Positions 2,385 through 42,005 of a DNA stretch of 42,005 nucleotides are shown one piece after another. Location of the stretch: contig DAIDGV010000009.1 of the NCBI GenBank assembly GCA_027452205.1, forward strand, positions 1 to 42,005, in the 5' to 3' direction. Position numbers and translations under genes: made by a program. Under the pieces are notes generated by a model. The model searched no databases. It was not told where the DNA came from and saw only the letters and a program-made list of their open reading frames with translations. Every line of letters starts with the position of its first letter. Within the stretch, counting starts at the first letter, position 1. This DNA comes from a candidate division FCPU426 bacterium. Lineage in GTDB: Bacteria; Oederibacteriota; Muellerivitia; Muellerivitales; Muellerivitaceae.

Positions 2385-2645
2385 AACAAATCCTTACACA
2401 TTAATTTCCGTATTAAGAACCAAACTCGATAAACAGTAAACAAAGGGGGCAAACAGTTTATACCTTGGCTATTCCCCGCCCCATTGCCTTTCAAACCTAT
2501 CGGTTTTCCCTTTTACACCCAATCCTTAAAACGGTACAGGCCAAAGGTTTAACGAAAACCTTACAATCCTTATTTTCCACTTAGCACCCGGGAATGGGTT
2601 TTTATAAATTTCTCTCATCTTTCATTCCATTCTGCGAGGTGTCTT

Positions 2646-4301
2646 ATGACTCTACCTACTGGTTTTCCCTATCCGTTGAACCAAGAGGTTCAAATACCCT
2701 TGGAACAGGTCATCCCCAACCCCAACCAACCCCGGCAGTTCGAACACCCGGAAGAGATCCAGTTATTGGCCGCTTCCATGAAGGCCAAAGGCCAAGAAGT
2801 GGCCGCCCGGGTCAGGCCCCTAACCGAGGCAGAACGGGCCGCCCACCCCGGCGCCTGGGTCATGCTGATTGGCGGGCATGGCCGGCGCGAAGCCGCCTTG
2901 CTGAACCAGTTTAAGACCCTCAAATGCACCATTGAGGATATCACCCCCGAAGAAGCCATCAGCGCCGCCGCCCGGGACAACAACATTCGGGATATGCACT
3001 GGTGGGAATGGTATCTGGTCATTGAACAGGTGGATAAGGCCTCTCAGAAGACCCAAAGGGACATAGCCAACGAGTTGGGTCAGACCCAGACCAGGGTTAA
3101 TTGGGCCTTAAAGATCACCAAAACCCTCAACCCAGCCGCCCGAACCCTGGTTAAAGAAAATCTTCAAAAAACCCTTAAAAATGATGATTACGATGTAATC
3201 ACGAAAAATAAGGGTTTTTCGATCACCGAGCGAACCCTGCTGACCCTGGCCGGGTTAGAAGACCCTAATCAGGTCCAACAGGCCCTTCAGGTGGTCTTAG
3301 ACGACTATTTGACTGCTGACCAGACTAAAGCCTTGGTCGCCTGGGTCCAGGCGGGCAACCCGGCGGATAGCTTTAATCCCAAGGTAGTTAAGCCAACCCC
3401 CAAGCCTCAAGCTCTCAAGCCCGTCCATGCGACCCCAACCGCCGAAGCCGAGCCAGTCACGGAAACCCCGACCCCTGCTCACTCTGCCAGCCATACGACC
3501 AACCACCCGCCCAAGGCCGCTCTAGCGCAGGCGCCCAAATCGGCTGCTACCCATGGATCGGAAATGGGCTCCGCTGAGACCGCCCTCTACGAAGCCGTCG
3601 CGGGGGTATCGGTGGTCGCCAAGATCAGGTCCAAGATCAAAAAGGGTGAAAGGCCGAACCTATTCGAAGTGTTCCTTTTGGCCGGGTACAACCTTTGGCG
3701 TGGGCTGGTCTGGCTGGTCAAGAACAGCTTCCGGCTGACCAAGCAGGCTGTGAAATGGACCTTCAAGGCCGTCAAGATGACTTGGAAGCTATTGCGCGAA
3801 AGCCTGGAGATAGTCGGCCTCTATAAGTATGTTCGGGCCGTCTTCGTCTTAGGGTTCGTCATCACCCTTTTGTTCGGCGGTTGGTATATTCATACCCACG
3901 GTACTGGGGCCGTAGTGCATCTGGTCTATTCGAAGCTGTTTTCTGCTTCGATCAGTACGCCTGCCCCAGCACCCATTGCGCCAACGCCCCAATCCACTGT
4001 TCAGTCGGTCGAAGCTATCCCCACGGCTGTAACGACAGTGCCCACAGCGATGTCCCAAACGGTTCCGGAGCCTCACCATCAGAAGATGGCGGCAATCACC
4101 GCTGCCGATTCGTCTTCTCAGGGTACTTTGACAAGTACCCCCGAATCAGCACAACCAAACCGCAGGTCTCAGCTTGTGGCTTCGACCCAGGTGCCCACCA
4201 CTGTTCCTAAAAAGAACGGCGATATGCTGACCCAAGCCGCTGGTGCGGCACCGGGGGTTGTCCAAGCGGCAAACGGAATTAAGAGCCTCTTCGGGTTATA
4301 G
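2646..4301 (+). CDS. ParB/Noc-like protein with C-terminal membrane segment
   Basis: 551 residues. Residues about 10-110 are a ParB N-terminal-type domain, with IPLEQVIPNPNQPR as box I and GGHGRREAALL as a variant of the GERRxxA nucleotide-binding box. A helix-turn-helix follows (TQRDIANELGQTQTRV, about 138-155). A Pro/Ala/Thr-rich linker (about 240-300) leads to basic amphipathic helices rich in Lys and Trp and then one hydrophobic segment (about 397-416). A second Pro/Thr-rich tail completes the protein. The start is set by GAGG seven bases upstream. No parA or parS-like site is adjacent, so this is probably not the chromosomal partition ParB. The ParB family is known to bind CTP and DNA. 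The architecture suggests a membrane-tethered DNA-binding protein, but its role is unknown. Confidence 0.75.
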   Translation: MTLPTGFPYPLNQEVQIPLEQVIPNPNQPRQFEHPEEIQLLAASMKAKGQEVAARVRPLTEAERAAHPGAWVMLIGGHGRREAALLNQFKTLKCTIEDITPEEAISAAARDNNIRDMHWWEWYLVIEQVDKASQKTQRDIANELGQTQTRVNWALKITKTLNPAARTLVKENLQKTLKNDDYDVITKNKGFSITERTLLTLAGLEDPNQVQQALQVVLDDYLTADQTKALVAWVQAGNPADSFNPKVVKPTPKPQALKPVHATPTAEAEPVTETPTPAHSASHTTNHPPKAALAQAPKSAATHGSEMGSAETALYEAVAGVSVVAKIRSKIKKGERPNLFEVFLLAGYNLWRGLVWLVKNSFRLTKQAVKWTFKAVKMTWKLLRESLEIVGLYKYVRAVFVLGFVITLLFGGWYIHTHGTGAVVHLVYSKLFSASISTPAPAPIAPTPQSTVQSVEAIPTAVTTVPTAMSQTVPEPHHQKMAAITAADSSSQGTLTSTPESAQPNRRSQLVASTQVPTTVPKKNGDMLTQAAGAAPGVVQAANGIKSLFGL

Positions 4302-39636: not shown

Positions 39637-41142
39637 CTAAATATACATTTTAAATTTCGGACTGGGGTTTTTGACTAAGGGATTGGTCACCAATACTTCC
39701 CCAACCATTTTTGAAAATCTTATGGTAACCGGATACGATTCACCCAATTTGCAGGCATTATAATTCAACTTTGTAAGTCCAAAAATATCGAGTGCGACTT
39801 GCCTTATATCCGCTTCACCGTGCTGGATATCTATTTTTAAAGGTAGTGGTATTTCTGCTCCATCATAAGTTCCTAACTGAGTTTTAAATCCAGACCCCCA
39901 AAGGAACCCAGTCTTTTCAGATACCTTCCAAAAACAACCTCTAAGCACTGGATAACGACCAACACGAAGGGCTCTAGTACCCGGATCTTTCCGTACACGT
40001 ATTCCTGTGACTTTAATGTCTTTTCCAGCCGCTTCGCAATAACCCTTATATTCCTCCGCATCAATGGAAGAGTGGCAATGGATAAAGACCTCTTTAAGAG
40101 GGCGTCCATCCAACTCACGATATGTTTTTAAGAGACCTTCTAATAAAGTCTTTGCGGCCTCCCGCGTAAGATGAAATATTTTCTTTTCGGGTGAATACCA
40201 GCGACCATCTTGTCCGCGAAAAACAAATCCATCCCCGTTGTCTAAAAACATTTGAGCTGCACAGCAAGCACTTGGACTTTGCGGGTTGTTGTCAGTCTTC
40301 CTAAAAGAGATTCCAATATAACAAACACCCGGTCGTGCATTTGCCAACTTCCACGGTTGTCCTCCAGCTTTGTAAAAAAGCGTAGTGGTTAAATTCCAAG
40401 CTCGATCCGCCAACGCTGTCAAACCTCTCTCATCGTCATCCGTTGAAACCAATCTCAGCGTCGTTTCTCTAATAATTTGAAGAGGGATGTCATGTTCCAT
40501 CGCCCTTGCTTTTAATTGACGTCTAAAATCTATCGAATACTTATAGTCATCAGGATCATACGGATCATATTGTTCAAGAAAACCCATCTGCCCGTTTTGT
40601 CGAAGTTTAGCCTCATCTTTTGAAAGAGAAAGACCTTGTCCAATTTCCACTTTGCTCTTTGTTCTACAATTCGTAAAAATCATTTCAGGGACTATACAAA
40701 TAAGAACATCAATCTTTTTATCTGAGGACTTACATTGTCTAATCGCATCGCCATACATGCGACAAACTTCAGCCGTCCGAATAAAAGCGTCATTATGGTT
40801 GGCATGTTTTGTTAACTTTAAATCATCGAGTTCTTTTTCCATACTTGGATTAGTCGGCCAGGCACAATTAAAAACCGCTTCGAATCCAGGATAACCCGGC
40901 CAAAGAACAGGATTTTTAACATCTCCAGCAATGTAATTTTGTATAGCGTGTGTGAATGATTTAAAGGCCACAATCCCGTTTTTTGTACCGATCACCCCAT
41001 AGGAAATACTCTTAGGACGCTCAGGCTTTTGATCATCAAACGGGCCAAATAACGAGAGGCCATCCTTTGGATTTGAAACAAACTGCCCCAAACCAAACTC
41101 CAATAATGGTTCATCAAAGCATTCCAAAACTTGATTATTCAT
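39637..41142 (-). CDS. Short prokaryotic Argonaute (MID-PIWI), catalytically inactive
   Basis: 501 residues from the ATG at 41142 (the frame is open 18 codons further up but that is the partner's acidic tail out of frame). EPLLEFGLGQF and ISYGVIGTKNGIVAF open the protein as in short pAgos. The MID domain (about 130-265) includes DVLICIVPEMIF and LKARAMEHDIPLQIIRETTL, the region that binds guide 5' ends. The PIWI domain starts near 255 (LADRAWNLTTTLFYKAGG). The first catalytic Asp of PIWI is Ser (CYIGISF, near 276), and the strand near 354 reads VFIHCHSSID, so slicing is impossible. The C-terminus LTKLNYNACKLG...PVTIRFSK is typical. Short pAgos form guide-loaded sensors that switch on an APAZ-linked effector. 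Overlaps the partner by 8 bp. Confidence 0.9.
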   Translation of the reverse strand: MNNQVLECFDEPLLEFGLGQFVSNPKDGLSLFGPFDDQKPERPKSISYGVIGTKNGIVAFKSFTHAIQNYIAGDVKNPVLWPGYPGFEAVFNCAWPTNPSMEKELDDLKLTKHANHNDAFIRTAEVCRMYGDAIRQCKSSDKKIDVLICIVPEMIFTNCRTKSKVEIGQGLSLSKDEAKLRQNGQMGFLEQYDPYDPDDYKYSIDFRRQLKARAMEHDIPLQIIRETTLRLVSTDDDERGLTALADRAWNLTTTLFYKAGGQPWKLANARPGVCYIGISFRKTDNNPQSPSACCAAQMFLDNGDGFVFRGQDGRWYSPEKKIFHLTREAAKTLLEGLLKTYRELDGRPLKEVFIHCHSSIDAEEYKGYCEAAGKDIKVTGIRVRKDPGTRALRVGRYPVLRGCFWKVSEKTGFLWGSGFKTQLGTYDGAEIPLPLKIDIQHGEADIRQVALDIFGLTKLNYNACKLGESYPVTIRFSKMVGEVLVTNPLVKNPSPKFKMYI

Positions 41143-42005
41143 TGACGACAACCTCGCTTTCATCATCTTCATCGTCGTCATCGTCGATGTTATCAACGTT
41201 GGATATCAATTCTTCCGCTACGGTTTCACTGTGCACTCTTGATGCAAATAGTTCGTCTTCGTCAATGCCATGATTTGCTTTCAATTCCAGAAACTGGCCT
41301 TGAAGAACAAACTTATTTTCCCCATCATCAAAAAAGCTAATGTCAGAGTTTTCGCCTTTTAGCCAAGCGATTACAGCAAGATGTTTTCGTAACCACTCAT
41401 CGTTATGCATAGATTTTCTAACGGACTTTTGCCTTCTTTGTTGCTTTCCGTCATCGAGATAAGAGCCGTCTGGGTTTTGAAAATAGAATCCTAACGTAAG
41501 CTTTACCGCAGGCACGCCGTAATCCCAATGAGTGAAACGTAGTCCTAATAAAAGATGCACCTTCTTTTGCTTTCGAACACCAATAACCAATAACCGAGTA
41601 TTCTTACCGTCAATCCCTTGATAAACAATTTTATCCTTCTCTAACAATTTATCTGGAAAGTAGGATTGATTTTTCTCTTTTAGCCAAATCAATCCCCTAT
41701 TCGAAAGATGCCTGCCCATTGTTTTGTTAAGTAGTTGGACGCCAGCCTTTCTAATAGGATCATCCGGATTGTCATTAGGCGGCCAAGGTAAAACTCTTAG
41801 CTCTTTCCATTTCGATTTTTCCAAGGGAGGTTTAACAAATGCCCAAACTTTGCCCGTGGCGGACACTGACCTGCCCCCAAAGTTAGTACCAATTCCTATC
41901 TCACAGCAGCATAGGACCAATTGGCGGAACCCATTAGCGGCATAGGCTTGGTCTTGGGTTCTAAAATCCAAGCTTCTGGTGCTGGCGGCAGATAGCCCAA
42001 CGAAC
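41135..42005 (-). CDS. APAZ-like partner of short Argonaute, N-terminus off the window
   Basis: At least 289 residues are open to the right edge without a stop. It overlaps the Argonaute start by 8 bp, the usual place of an APAZ (N/L1/L2-like) subunit. Low-complexity end: DNIDDDDDEDDESEVVVNE, a strongly acidic tail; in SPARTA systems an acidic tail of TIR-APAZ blocks the nucleic-acid channel until target is bound. The body contains many basic/aromatic strands (LGLRFTHWDYGVPAVKLTLG). I do not see an effector (TIR, SIR2, nuclease) here. Alternative: a GTG at 41866 with GGGGG upstream would give a separate 243-residue protein; the first ~35 codons before it look unusual (three consecutive Cys). 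The APAZ assignment rests on position and general features, not a motif. Confidence 0.6.
   Translation of the reverse strand, partial: FVGLSAASTRSLDFRTQDQAYAANGFRQLVLCCCEIGIGTNFGGRSVSATGKVWAFVKPPLEKSKWKELRVLPWPPNDNPDDPIRKAGVQLLNKTMGRHLSNRGLIWLKEKNQSYFPDKLLEKDKIVYQGIDGKNTRLLVIGVRKQKKVHLLLGLRFTHWDYGVPAVKLTLGFYFQNPDGSYLDDGKQQRRQKSVRKSMHNDEWLRKHLAVIAWLKGENSDISFFDDGENKFVLQGQFLELKANHGIDEDELFASRVHSETVAEELISNVDNIDDDDDEDDESEVVVNE
41896..42003 (-). CDS. Possible 3' end of a further upstream gene (competing frame)
   Basis: In another minus-strand frame, 35 codons end at TAG (41896-41898) with YLPPAPEAWILEPKTKPMPL and then MGSANWSYAAVR. The residue mix looks at least as natural as that of the overlapping APAZ frame. 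If real, it is the C-terminus of a separate upstream gene and the APAZ protein starts at GTG 41866, 29 bp further down. Only the sequence beyond the edge can decide. Confidence 0.25.
   Translation of the reverse strand, partial: SLGYLPPAPEAWILEPKTKPMPLMGSANWSYAAVR

Follow-up and report, generated by a model that had tools for sequence, protein, structure and literature searches.

A dispersed protein family of candidate phylum FCPU426 with a ParB/Noc-type head, a predicted membrane span and a palindrome, the candidate binding site, within most head genes

The Noc proteins of Bacillus and Geobacillus carry a ParB-type CTP-fold and a helix-turn-helix (HTH) in one head, recognise specific 16-bp sites and bring DNA to the membrane by means of a short N-terminal amphipathic helix that is released by CTP, the attachment being described in the relevant part of PMC8429893 as transient and CTP-controlled. 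The same part of that paper, citing Adams 2015, relates that Noc stripped of its own helix and fused to a synthetic transmembrane helix left chromosomes broken in many cells. The head fold, with its invariant nucleotide-site Arg and Asn, also belongs to the ParB/Spo0J proteins of ParABS systems. KorB of plasmid RK2, a regulator acting on odd-length palindromes, has a ParB-type head and is soluble, and PadC of Myxococcus, which employs a ParB-like domain as an adaptor, is not known to have a span. As PMC9178275 puts it where it deals with PadC, this protein connects ParA to bactofilins. The protein described here shares the ParB-type head with all of these and would, like Noc, bring DNA to the membrane; unlike Noc, it has a predicted C-terminal span behind a long linker, and His in the place of the catalytic Glu. 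In the open-access literature searched, no report was found of a ParB with a transmembrane part; a review uses the words in another context.

The window, that is the whole stretch of DNA analysed, is contig C9 of genome G000 (42,005 bp; the genome comprises 2.89 Mb in 28 contigs). Copies of the gene are named below by their contig, with the genome added outside G000. The one-chain layout read in the preliminary description proved exact in its open reading frame boundaries, on the + strand and with 551 residues, and the parts are as follows.

2438..2645, + strand: leader with the inverted repeat AAGGTTT-AACGA-AAACCTT (2544-2562)
2646..4301, + strand: coding sequence of the predicted membrane-anchored ParB/Noc-like protein, 551 residues (ORF call, paralogues, substitution pattern between copies)
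2685..2975, + strand: ParB N-terminal (CTP-fold) domain, residues 14-110 (Pfam, profile, AlphaFold, Foldseek, alignment)
2988..3134, + strand: HTH DNA-binding domain, about residues 115-163 (profile, model, alignment)
3155..3219, + strand: 65-bp composite element within the reading frame, its outer arms AAAAACCCTTA / TAAGGGTTTTT flanking an inner palindrome
3185..3201, no strand: inner palindrome TGATTAC-GAT-GTAATCA, candidate binding site of the window protein
3381..3560, + strand: Pro/Ala/Thr-rich disordered linker, residues 246-305 (sequence, AlphaFold model)
3561..3833, + strand: membrane module of basic and amphipathic helices, residues 306-396
3834..3893, + strand: predicted membrane span, residues 397-416 (hydrophobicity, comparison with relatives)
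3894..4298, + strand: predicted extracytoplasmic disordered tail, residues 417-551

The window protein falls below the curated scores: Pfam PF02195 (ParB_N) gave 19.1 bits over residues 16-109 (gathering score 26.3), TIGR00180 gave 49.5 bits over residues 14-163 (cut-off 58.45) and the curated Noc model TIGR04285 gave 44.9 bits against 315. The ParB N-domain read earlier from the letters is nonetheless borne out, as a profile built from 12 family heads reached Spo0J (1vz0, E 2.6e-27) and Noc (7ol9, E 1.2e-24), while Foldseek with the AlphaFold model of the window protein reached ParB, Noc and KorB structures (best E 3.5e-8), and structural matches include 8qa8/8qa9 (KorB) and 6ryk (PadC). The model has a pLDDT of about 65-90 over residues 1-100 and about 50-60 in the HTH region, and profile, model and alignment agree on an HTH at about residues 119-160. 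Based on sequence and model, the head is assigned to the ParB/Noc superfamily, with a ParB N-terminal fold followed by an HTH.

The variant GGHGRREAA box is also real. GERR of ParB is replaced by GGHGRR (residues 76-81), so that His78 stands in the place of the catalytic Glu, and Asn112 just behind is retained; the nucleotide-site Arg (the second R of GERR) and Asn (of ENxxR) are thus both present. Across 17 aligned head rows the Glu position holds H in 8, Q in 4 and E in 5, and the positions of Arg80 and Asn112, which we take to be those of Noc R89 and N121, are invariant (17/17). The Glu of the GERR box is presumably E93 of M. xanthus. The E93A mutant of M. xanthus is reported in the relevant part of PMC9178275 to be hydrolysis-defective. 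The window protein departs from the ParB of a ParABS system in several respects: the curated cut-offs are missed, the catalytic Glu is missing and canonical parS occurs in none of the seven family genomes with up to 1 mismatch allowed. In further distinction from ParB/Spo0J, the recognition helix is another one, and no counterpart was seen by eye of the C-terminal dimer region of the distinct ordinary ParB (286 residues) that G000 encodes on C12. No ParA gene was recognised by eye among the reading frames of the window.

Behind the head, the Pro-rich linker (residues 246-305) and the tail (residues 430-551) are disordered as the preliminary description had it (pLDDT about 25-40), and the basic amphipathic helix that it mentioned lies at residues 366-390, with a hydrophobic moment of 0.55 and a net charge of +4. 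For the membrane helix at 397-416 support comes from relatives. The best 19-residue window of the window protein (398-416) has a mean Kyte-Doolittle value of 1.89, which 696 of 5000 shuffles reach, so that the span does not by itself go beyond composition; of the 18 fused members examined, however, 17 have a best window of at least 1.6 (G001_C36 stands at 1.52), hydrophobicity at this position rises to 3.04 in relatives of quite different sequence, and the 40 residues ahead of the span are richer in Lys plus Arg than those behind it in 15 of the 18, poorer in one and equal in two. The anchors of G002, G004 and G006 differ in sequence but occupy the same place. Between the C9 and C10 copies, the module (residues 306-430) has a dN of 0.097 and a dS of 0.541 (dN/dS about 0.18), as against 0.533 and 1.372 in the head, which marks the module as the most constrained part of the protein at the level of substitutions. 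These comparisons support a membrane anchor that is real and selected, and exchange between paralogues appears, from the lower dS, to be more recent for the module than for the heads.

The tails vary by genome: those of G000 are disordered and rich in Pro and Thr, those of G002 and G006 are NTF2-like, and those of G001 are PDZ-like, below threshold. The tail of the window protein ends in a short C-terminal motif common to the paralogues (GD.LTQ...FG.). The tail models of G002 and G006 resemble the periplasmic NTF2-like domain of TraM/DotI/VirB8 with middling scores (Z 6.9 and 6.7, rmsd 3.3-3.5 over 110-113 residues; best VIA match TraM 3wz3, Z 6.9, AlphaFold pLDDT 51), and a sequence search with the relatives' tail against the PDB gave no match. 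The window protein, unlike TraM/DotI/VirB8, has no NTF2-like domain, and no secretion genes were recognised round the copies.

From sequence comparisons, the window protein belongs to a dispersed, multi-copy family within one family-level group of candidate phylum FCPU426. G000 holds, besides the window copy, copies on C10 (53% identity), C3 (46%) and C24 (35%) and one on C23 that is broken by stops; at least one further C23 copy, at 124.9 kb, is a relic consisting of a leader and a decayed start. With the 12-head profile at E 1e-15, 38 of 45 genomes of the phylum match, most of them with a single ParB-like frame near 290 residues, which is what ordinary ParB would give. Seven of the 45 match strongly (E below 1e-30), namely six of the own family and G018, five of these seven having supplied rows to the profile and so scoring high by construction. 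A profile of the G000 and G001 membrane module reached three of the 45 genomes, the third, G003, at 4.5e-4. No relative was confirmed on viral contigs, and the plasmid and phage records (2 and 5, respectively) all hold ordinary ParB/Noc-type heads covering 25-35% of the query.

In a tree of 29 heads, ordinary ParB, which includes that of G031 (locus L028), stands apart (100/100), and three head lineages, which differ at the position of the catalytic Glu, cross genomes. His heads are found in the window, C10, C3, C23, G001_C36, G002_C70, G004_C29 and G006_C102; Gln heads in C24, G004_C56 and G006_C143, with G018_C102 placed elsewhere in the tree; and Glu heads in G001_C109, G001_C99, G002_C43, G004_C60 and G003_C329. 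Pairs from the same genome with different head types (10 pairs) have mean normalised scores of 0.132 in the head and 0.316 in the rest; pairs from different genomes with the same head type (26 pairs) have 0.397 and 0.048. Thus the heads of G004_C56 and G006_C143 are 78% identical and the aligning part of the rest 28%, whereas those of G002_C70 and G002_C43 are 34% identical and the rest 66%; the pattern is least clear in G006, the two copies there having little in common in either part (0.17 and 0.15). The membrane and tail part groups by genome, a value reached by none of 20,000 permutations of 14 members, G001_C39 (at a contig end), the G001 copies without a CTP-fold, the broken C23 copy and the span-less heads being left aside. 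The pattern, as read from these alignments, is one anchor with several heads: the heads cross genomes and the membrane-plus-tail part follows the genome.

Four G001 copies (C31, C82, C54 and C13) retain HTH, span and tail and lack the CTP-fold domain, which is therefore dispensable for the function of the rest, whatever that may be. Span-less head homologues also occur, twice in G018 and in G002_C69, G001_C108 and G003_C329, with two heads each in G002_C69 and G001_C108. The head thus also occurs on its own, which goes part of the way towards the separate halves by which the preliminary description would have been refuted, although the membrane half was not met with as a gene of its own.

Just behind the HTH codons, a perfect palindrome with an arm of at least 8 nt is present in 14 of 17 head genes, as against 5 of 254 other windows from the same genes; the search window of 35 codons behind the HTH was set with the pattern already in view, and the count omits G001_C39, cut at the contig end, and the G001 copies without a CTP-fold, two of which (C31 and C82) have no such palindrome. 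Twelve of the 14 have a 1-nt centre and so keep two-fold symmetry to the middle, and for each of the 14 genes 0-5 of 300 synonymous-codon shuffles reach the observed palindrome. The window copy is one of the three misses and the weakest kind of palindrome, with an arm of 7 and a centre of 3 (reached by 4 of 300 shuffles). In G001_C109 the palindrome, with a 5-nt centre, begins one base ahead of the search window, and G003_C329 has none behind the HTH. Eight ordinary parB genes were scanned as well (five from the phylum, three from outside); two of them contain 8-nt arms, one at codon 19 and the other at codon 206, both outside the 35 codons behind an HTH placed by eye.

Near-identical recognition helices go with identical palindromes in three pairs (C9/C23, 17/17; G002_C70/G006_C102, 17/17; G004_C56/G006_C143, 19/19), the 120-nt flanks being 71-84% identical in all three. 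In G001_C109, G001_C99 and G001_C108a, whose heads share 68-77% identity where they align, the recognition helices are MDRPKVNRALQ, MNKDKVTRALS and MDLEKVNRAIR, respectively, and the palindromes have the outer AATT in common and differ in the inner part. The few pairs at hand are suggestive of palindrome identity following the recognition helix, and the embedded palindromes are most likely the proteins' own candidate binding sites. As a precedent, parS lies inside spo0J of B. subtilis. A plasmid parB of Lactococcus was likewise used with its internal parS in a construct, as described in part of PMC6156202.

Five of 13 palindromes searched recur outside the head genes, the other eight being found nowhere else. 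That of C3 recurs at C10:98925-98943 (19/19), that of the window copy at C26:1929-1945, that of G002_C43 at G002:C22:39497 and that of G002_C70 at G002:C114:70128 (17/17); C23 has, close to its end, half-sites of the C24 palindrome at two positions. The G002:C22 site matches other pieces of head genes too and may be a relic. The 65-bp element of the window has similar copies at C26:1899-1963, C23:126919-126981 and C2:36719-36781. A genome-wide set of identical palindromes, which the preliminary description had proposed to look for as the binding site, was not found; there are few copies per site. In G000 the recurrent sites sit between genes, in clusters that bring together several perfect palindromes of different sequence, most of them with a centre of 1 nt.

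L125 6266-6715: palindrome cluster
L125 8938-9274: palindrome cluster
L217 6853-7434: palindrome cluster
L127 4819-4997: palindrome cluster
L142 1185-1446: palindrome cluster
L124 1747-2009: palindrome cluster

Each cluster, of 180-580 bp, holds 3-8 palindromes, compared with 0.1-0.4 per kb round the gene copies, the clusters having been reached via the embedded elements and so forming no random sample of the genome. Four of the six clusters share GGTTTTACCAAC-N-GTTGGTAAAACC. The recurring unit in G000 is usually a longer gene segment, of up to 69 bp; that of C3 is just 21 bp. At about 1160-1210 of L142 (G000:C3:315.5 kb) there is an element like those of Glu-type heads, consisting of a palindrome and CAAATAAGGGAATTTGGGGTG, although searches of G000 found no Glu-type head.

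The C10 and C23 paralogues have leaders 83% identical to that of the window copy, and C23:42.3k, C23:44.3k and C10:2.4k hold shorter relics of leaders. The inverted repeat of the leader was ruled out as a dispersed operator, AGGTTT-N5-AAACCT occurring at four places genome-wide (three of them leaders or a leader relic) against three for the reversed control. The motif AAAAATAAGGGTTTTT, present in leaders of unrelated genes too, was set aside; it stands once or more in the leader of apparently one conserved gene in several family genomes (L147, L130, L131, L133).

The neighbouring genes of the copies are not conserved. In the window, an OLD/Gabija-like ATPase with a TOPRIM-type end (549-2384, - strand; PADLOC Old E 2.8e-25, Pfam AAA_15 E 1.2e-21) diverges from the ParB-like gene at a distance of 261 bp. 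At the contig end there is a class I prokaryotic Argonaute (39637-41971, - strand; PADLOC pAgo_I E 3e-168), a region in which no Pfam or NCBIfam match was found, overlapped by a pAgo partner fragment of TIR-PNTD type (E 3.1e-18). The same encoded run, FRTQDQAYAANGFRQLVLCCCEIGIGTNFGG, is found at 41135-41971 of the window and at 1-723 of L124, the left end of contig C26, as a repeat at two contig ends. In G006, CBASS genes (cyclase, TRIP13, SAVED-TIR; L042 4245-8930) stand just upstream of the G006_C102 copy.

The reading to which we give an even chance, based on sequence, is that of a membrane-anchored ParB/Noc-type protein, N-terminus inside, that docks palindrome DNA at the inner membrane with its tail outward. 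The cytoplasmic head, as a dimer, would bind the palindrome both within the gene that encodes it and in a small number of clusters between genes; the span would hold the bound sites at the inner membrane, and the tail would face outwards. Because Arg80 and Asn112 are retained, the head probably still senses nucleotide; with Glu changed to His, CTP hydrolysis is presumably lost or altered, so that the protein would dock rather than spread and cycle like ParB or Noc. The altered Glu and the small number of sites may make a permanent anchor tolerable, and paralogues with different heads would give one shared anchor several DNA addresses. The tether of a specific DNA site to the envelope that was suggested earlier stands as far as its parts go, with a ParB-type head on a selected anchor and a candidate site inside the gene and elsewhere (5/13); the tethering itself we infer. 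A tentative and fairly unlikely extension is a multi-address docking code: heads that are interchangeable and have each a site of their own in the gene, directly behind the HTH codons, would, on a shared genome-specific anchor and tail, pin intergenic palindrome clusters of several specificities each to the envelope.

The palindromes might instead be mobile palindromic elements or RNA hairpins lodged in a permissive linker after the HTH, and not protein-binding sites at all, an explanation that we hold to be possible but somewhat unlikely. Rickettsia palindromic elements occur within protein genes, and here 48-69 bp of the gene segment, beyond the palindrome, often recur in the intergenic clusters, one of which overlaps the relic of a dead, decayed gene copy; the Glu-type-like elements in a genome in which searches found no Glu-type head fit this explanation too. 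The outer arms of the window copy do fold as a hairpin (RNA fold z -4.1), but the G002 and G006 copies give unremarkable RNA folds (z -0.9 and -1.8), a hairpin loop needs no centre of the 1-nt kind found in 12 of 14 perfect palindromes, and palindrome identity appears to follow the recognition helix. Rfam gave no match in the window. A one-component transmembrane transcription regulator on the ToxR/CadC plan, with the tail sensing outside and the HTH using the palindromes to regulate the gene that encodes it and a few more, is the main functional rival, though in our estimate unlikely. It would account for a single gene with its own conserved leader and inverted repeat, for few sites per protein, for tails that vary by genome (the NTF2-like likeness being weak) and for a CTP-fold domain that four G001 copies dispense with. 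However, the palindrome lies mid-gene and not at the promoter, and no target gene consistently adjoins the sites. The window protein has, unlike ToxR/CadC, a ParB-type and not a winged-helix (OmpR-type) head. As to a single span with an outer sensor domain, the span is backed by the relatives, and the tail of the window protein is predicted to be disordered, without a fold.

That the protein is an island or defence accessory, recognising or holding foreign DNA at the membrane for example, seems improbable. Copies do adjoin the OLD/Gabija-type ATPase (window), the CBASS locus (G006), type I and II methylases (C24, C10) and an AriA-like ATPase (G002), pAgo lies at the opposite end of the window contig, and seven of ten neighbour proteins scanned have PADLOC matches; the ten were, however, picked by eye and without a control set, other copies stand among housekeeping genes, and the window protein itself has no PADLOC match. 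Highly improbable is the absence of a true span, with residues 397-416 and the amphipathic helices binding the membrane surface in the manner of Noc: the 19-residue hydrophobicity of the window protein within the shuffle range would agree with this, but high hydrophobicity is kept at the position in quite different relatives, together with the charge bias across it.

On the docking reading, holding chosen DNA sites at the cell envelope could be the role of the family. If the embedded palindromes are binding sites, each gene gives a recognition helix together with its target; if this is true, the specificity code of ParB-type HTHs and the membrane attachment of chosen chromosomal sites would become directly testable. 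Since an artificial span on Noc damages chromosomes, according to the part of PMC8429893 cited above, a natural family of ParB with a span would be informative on tolerance, and may show how such a protein is tolerated, through an altered CTPase motif, few sites and a long linker.
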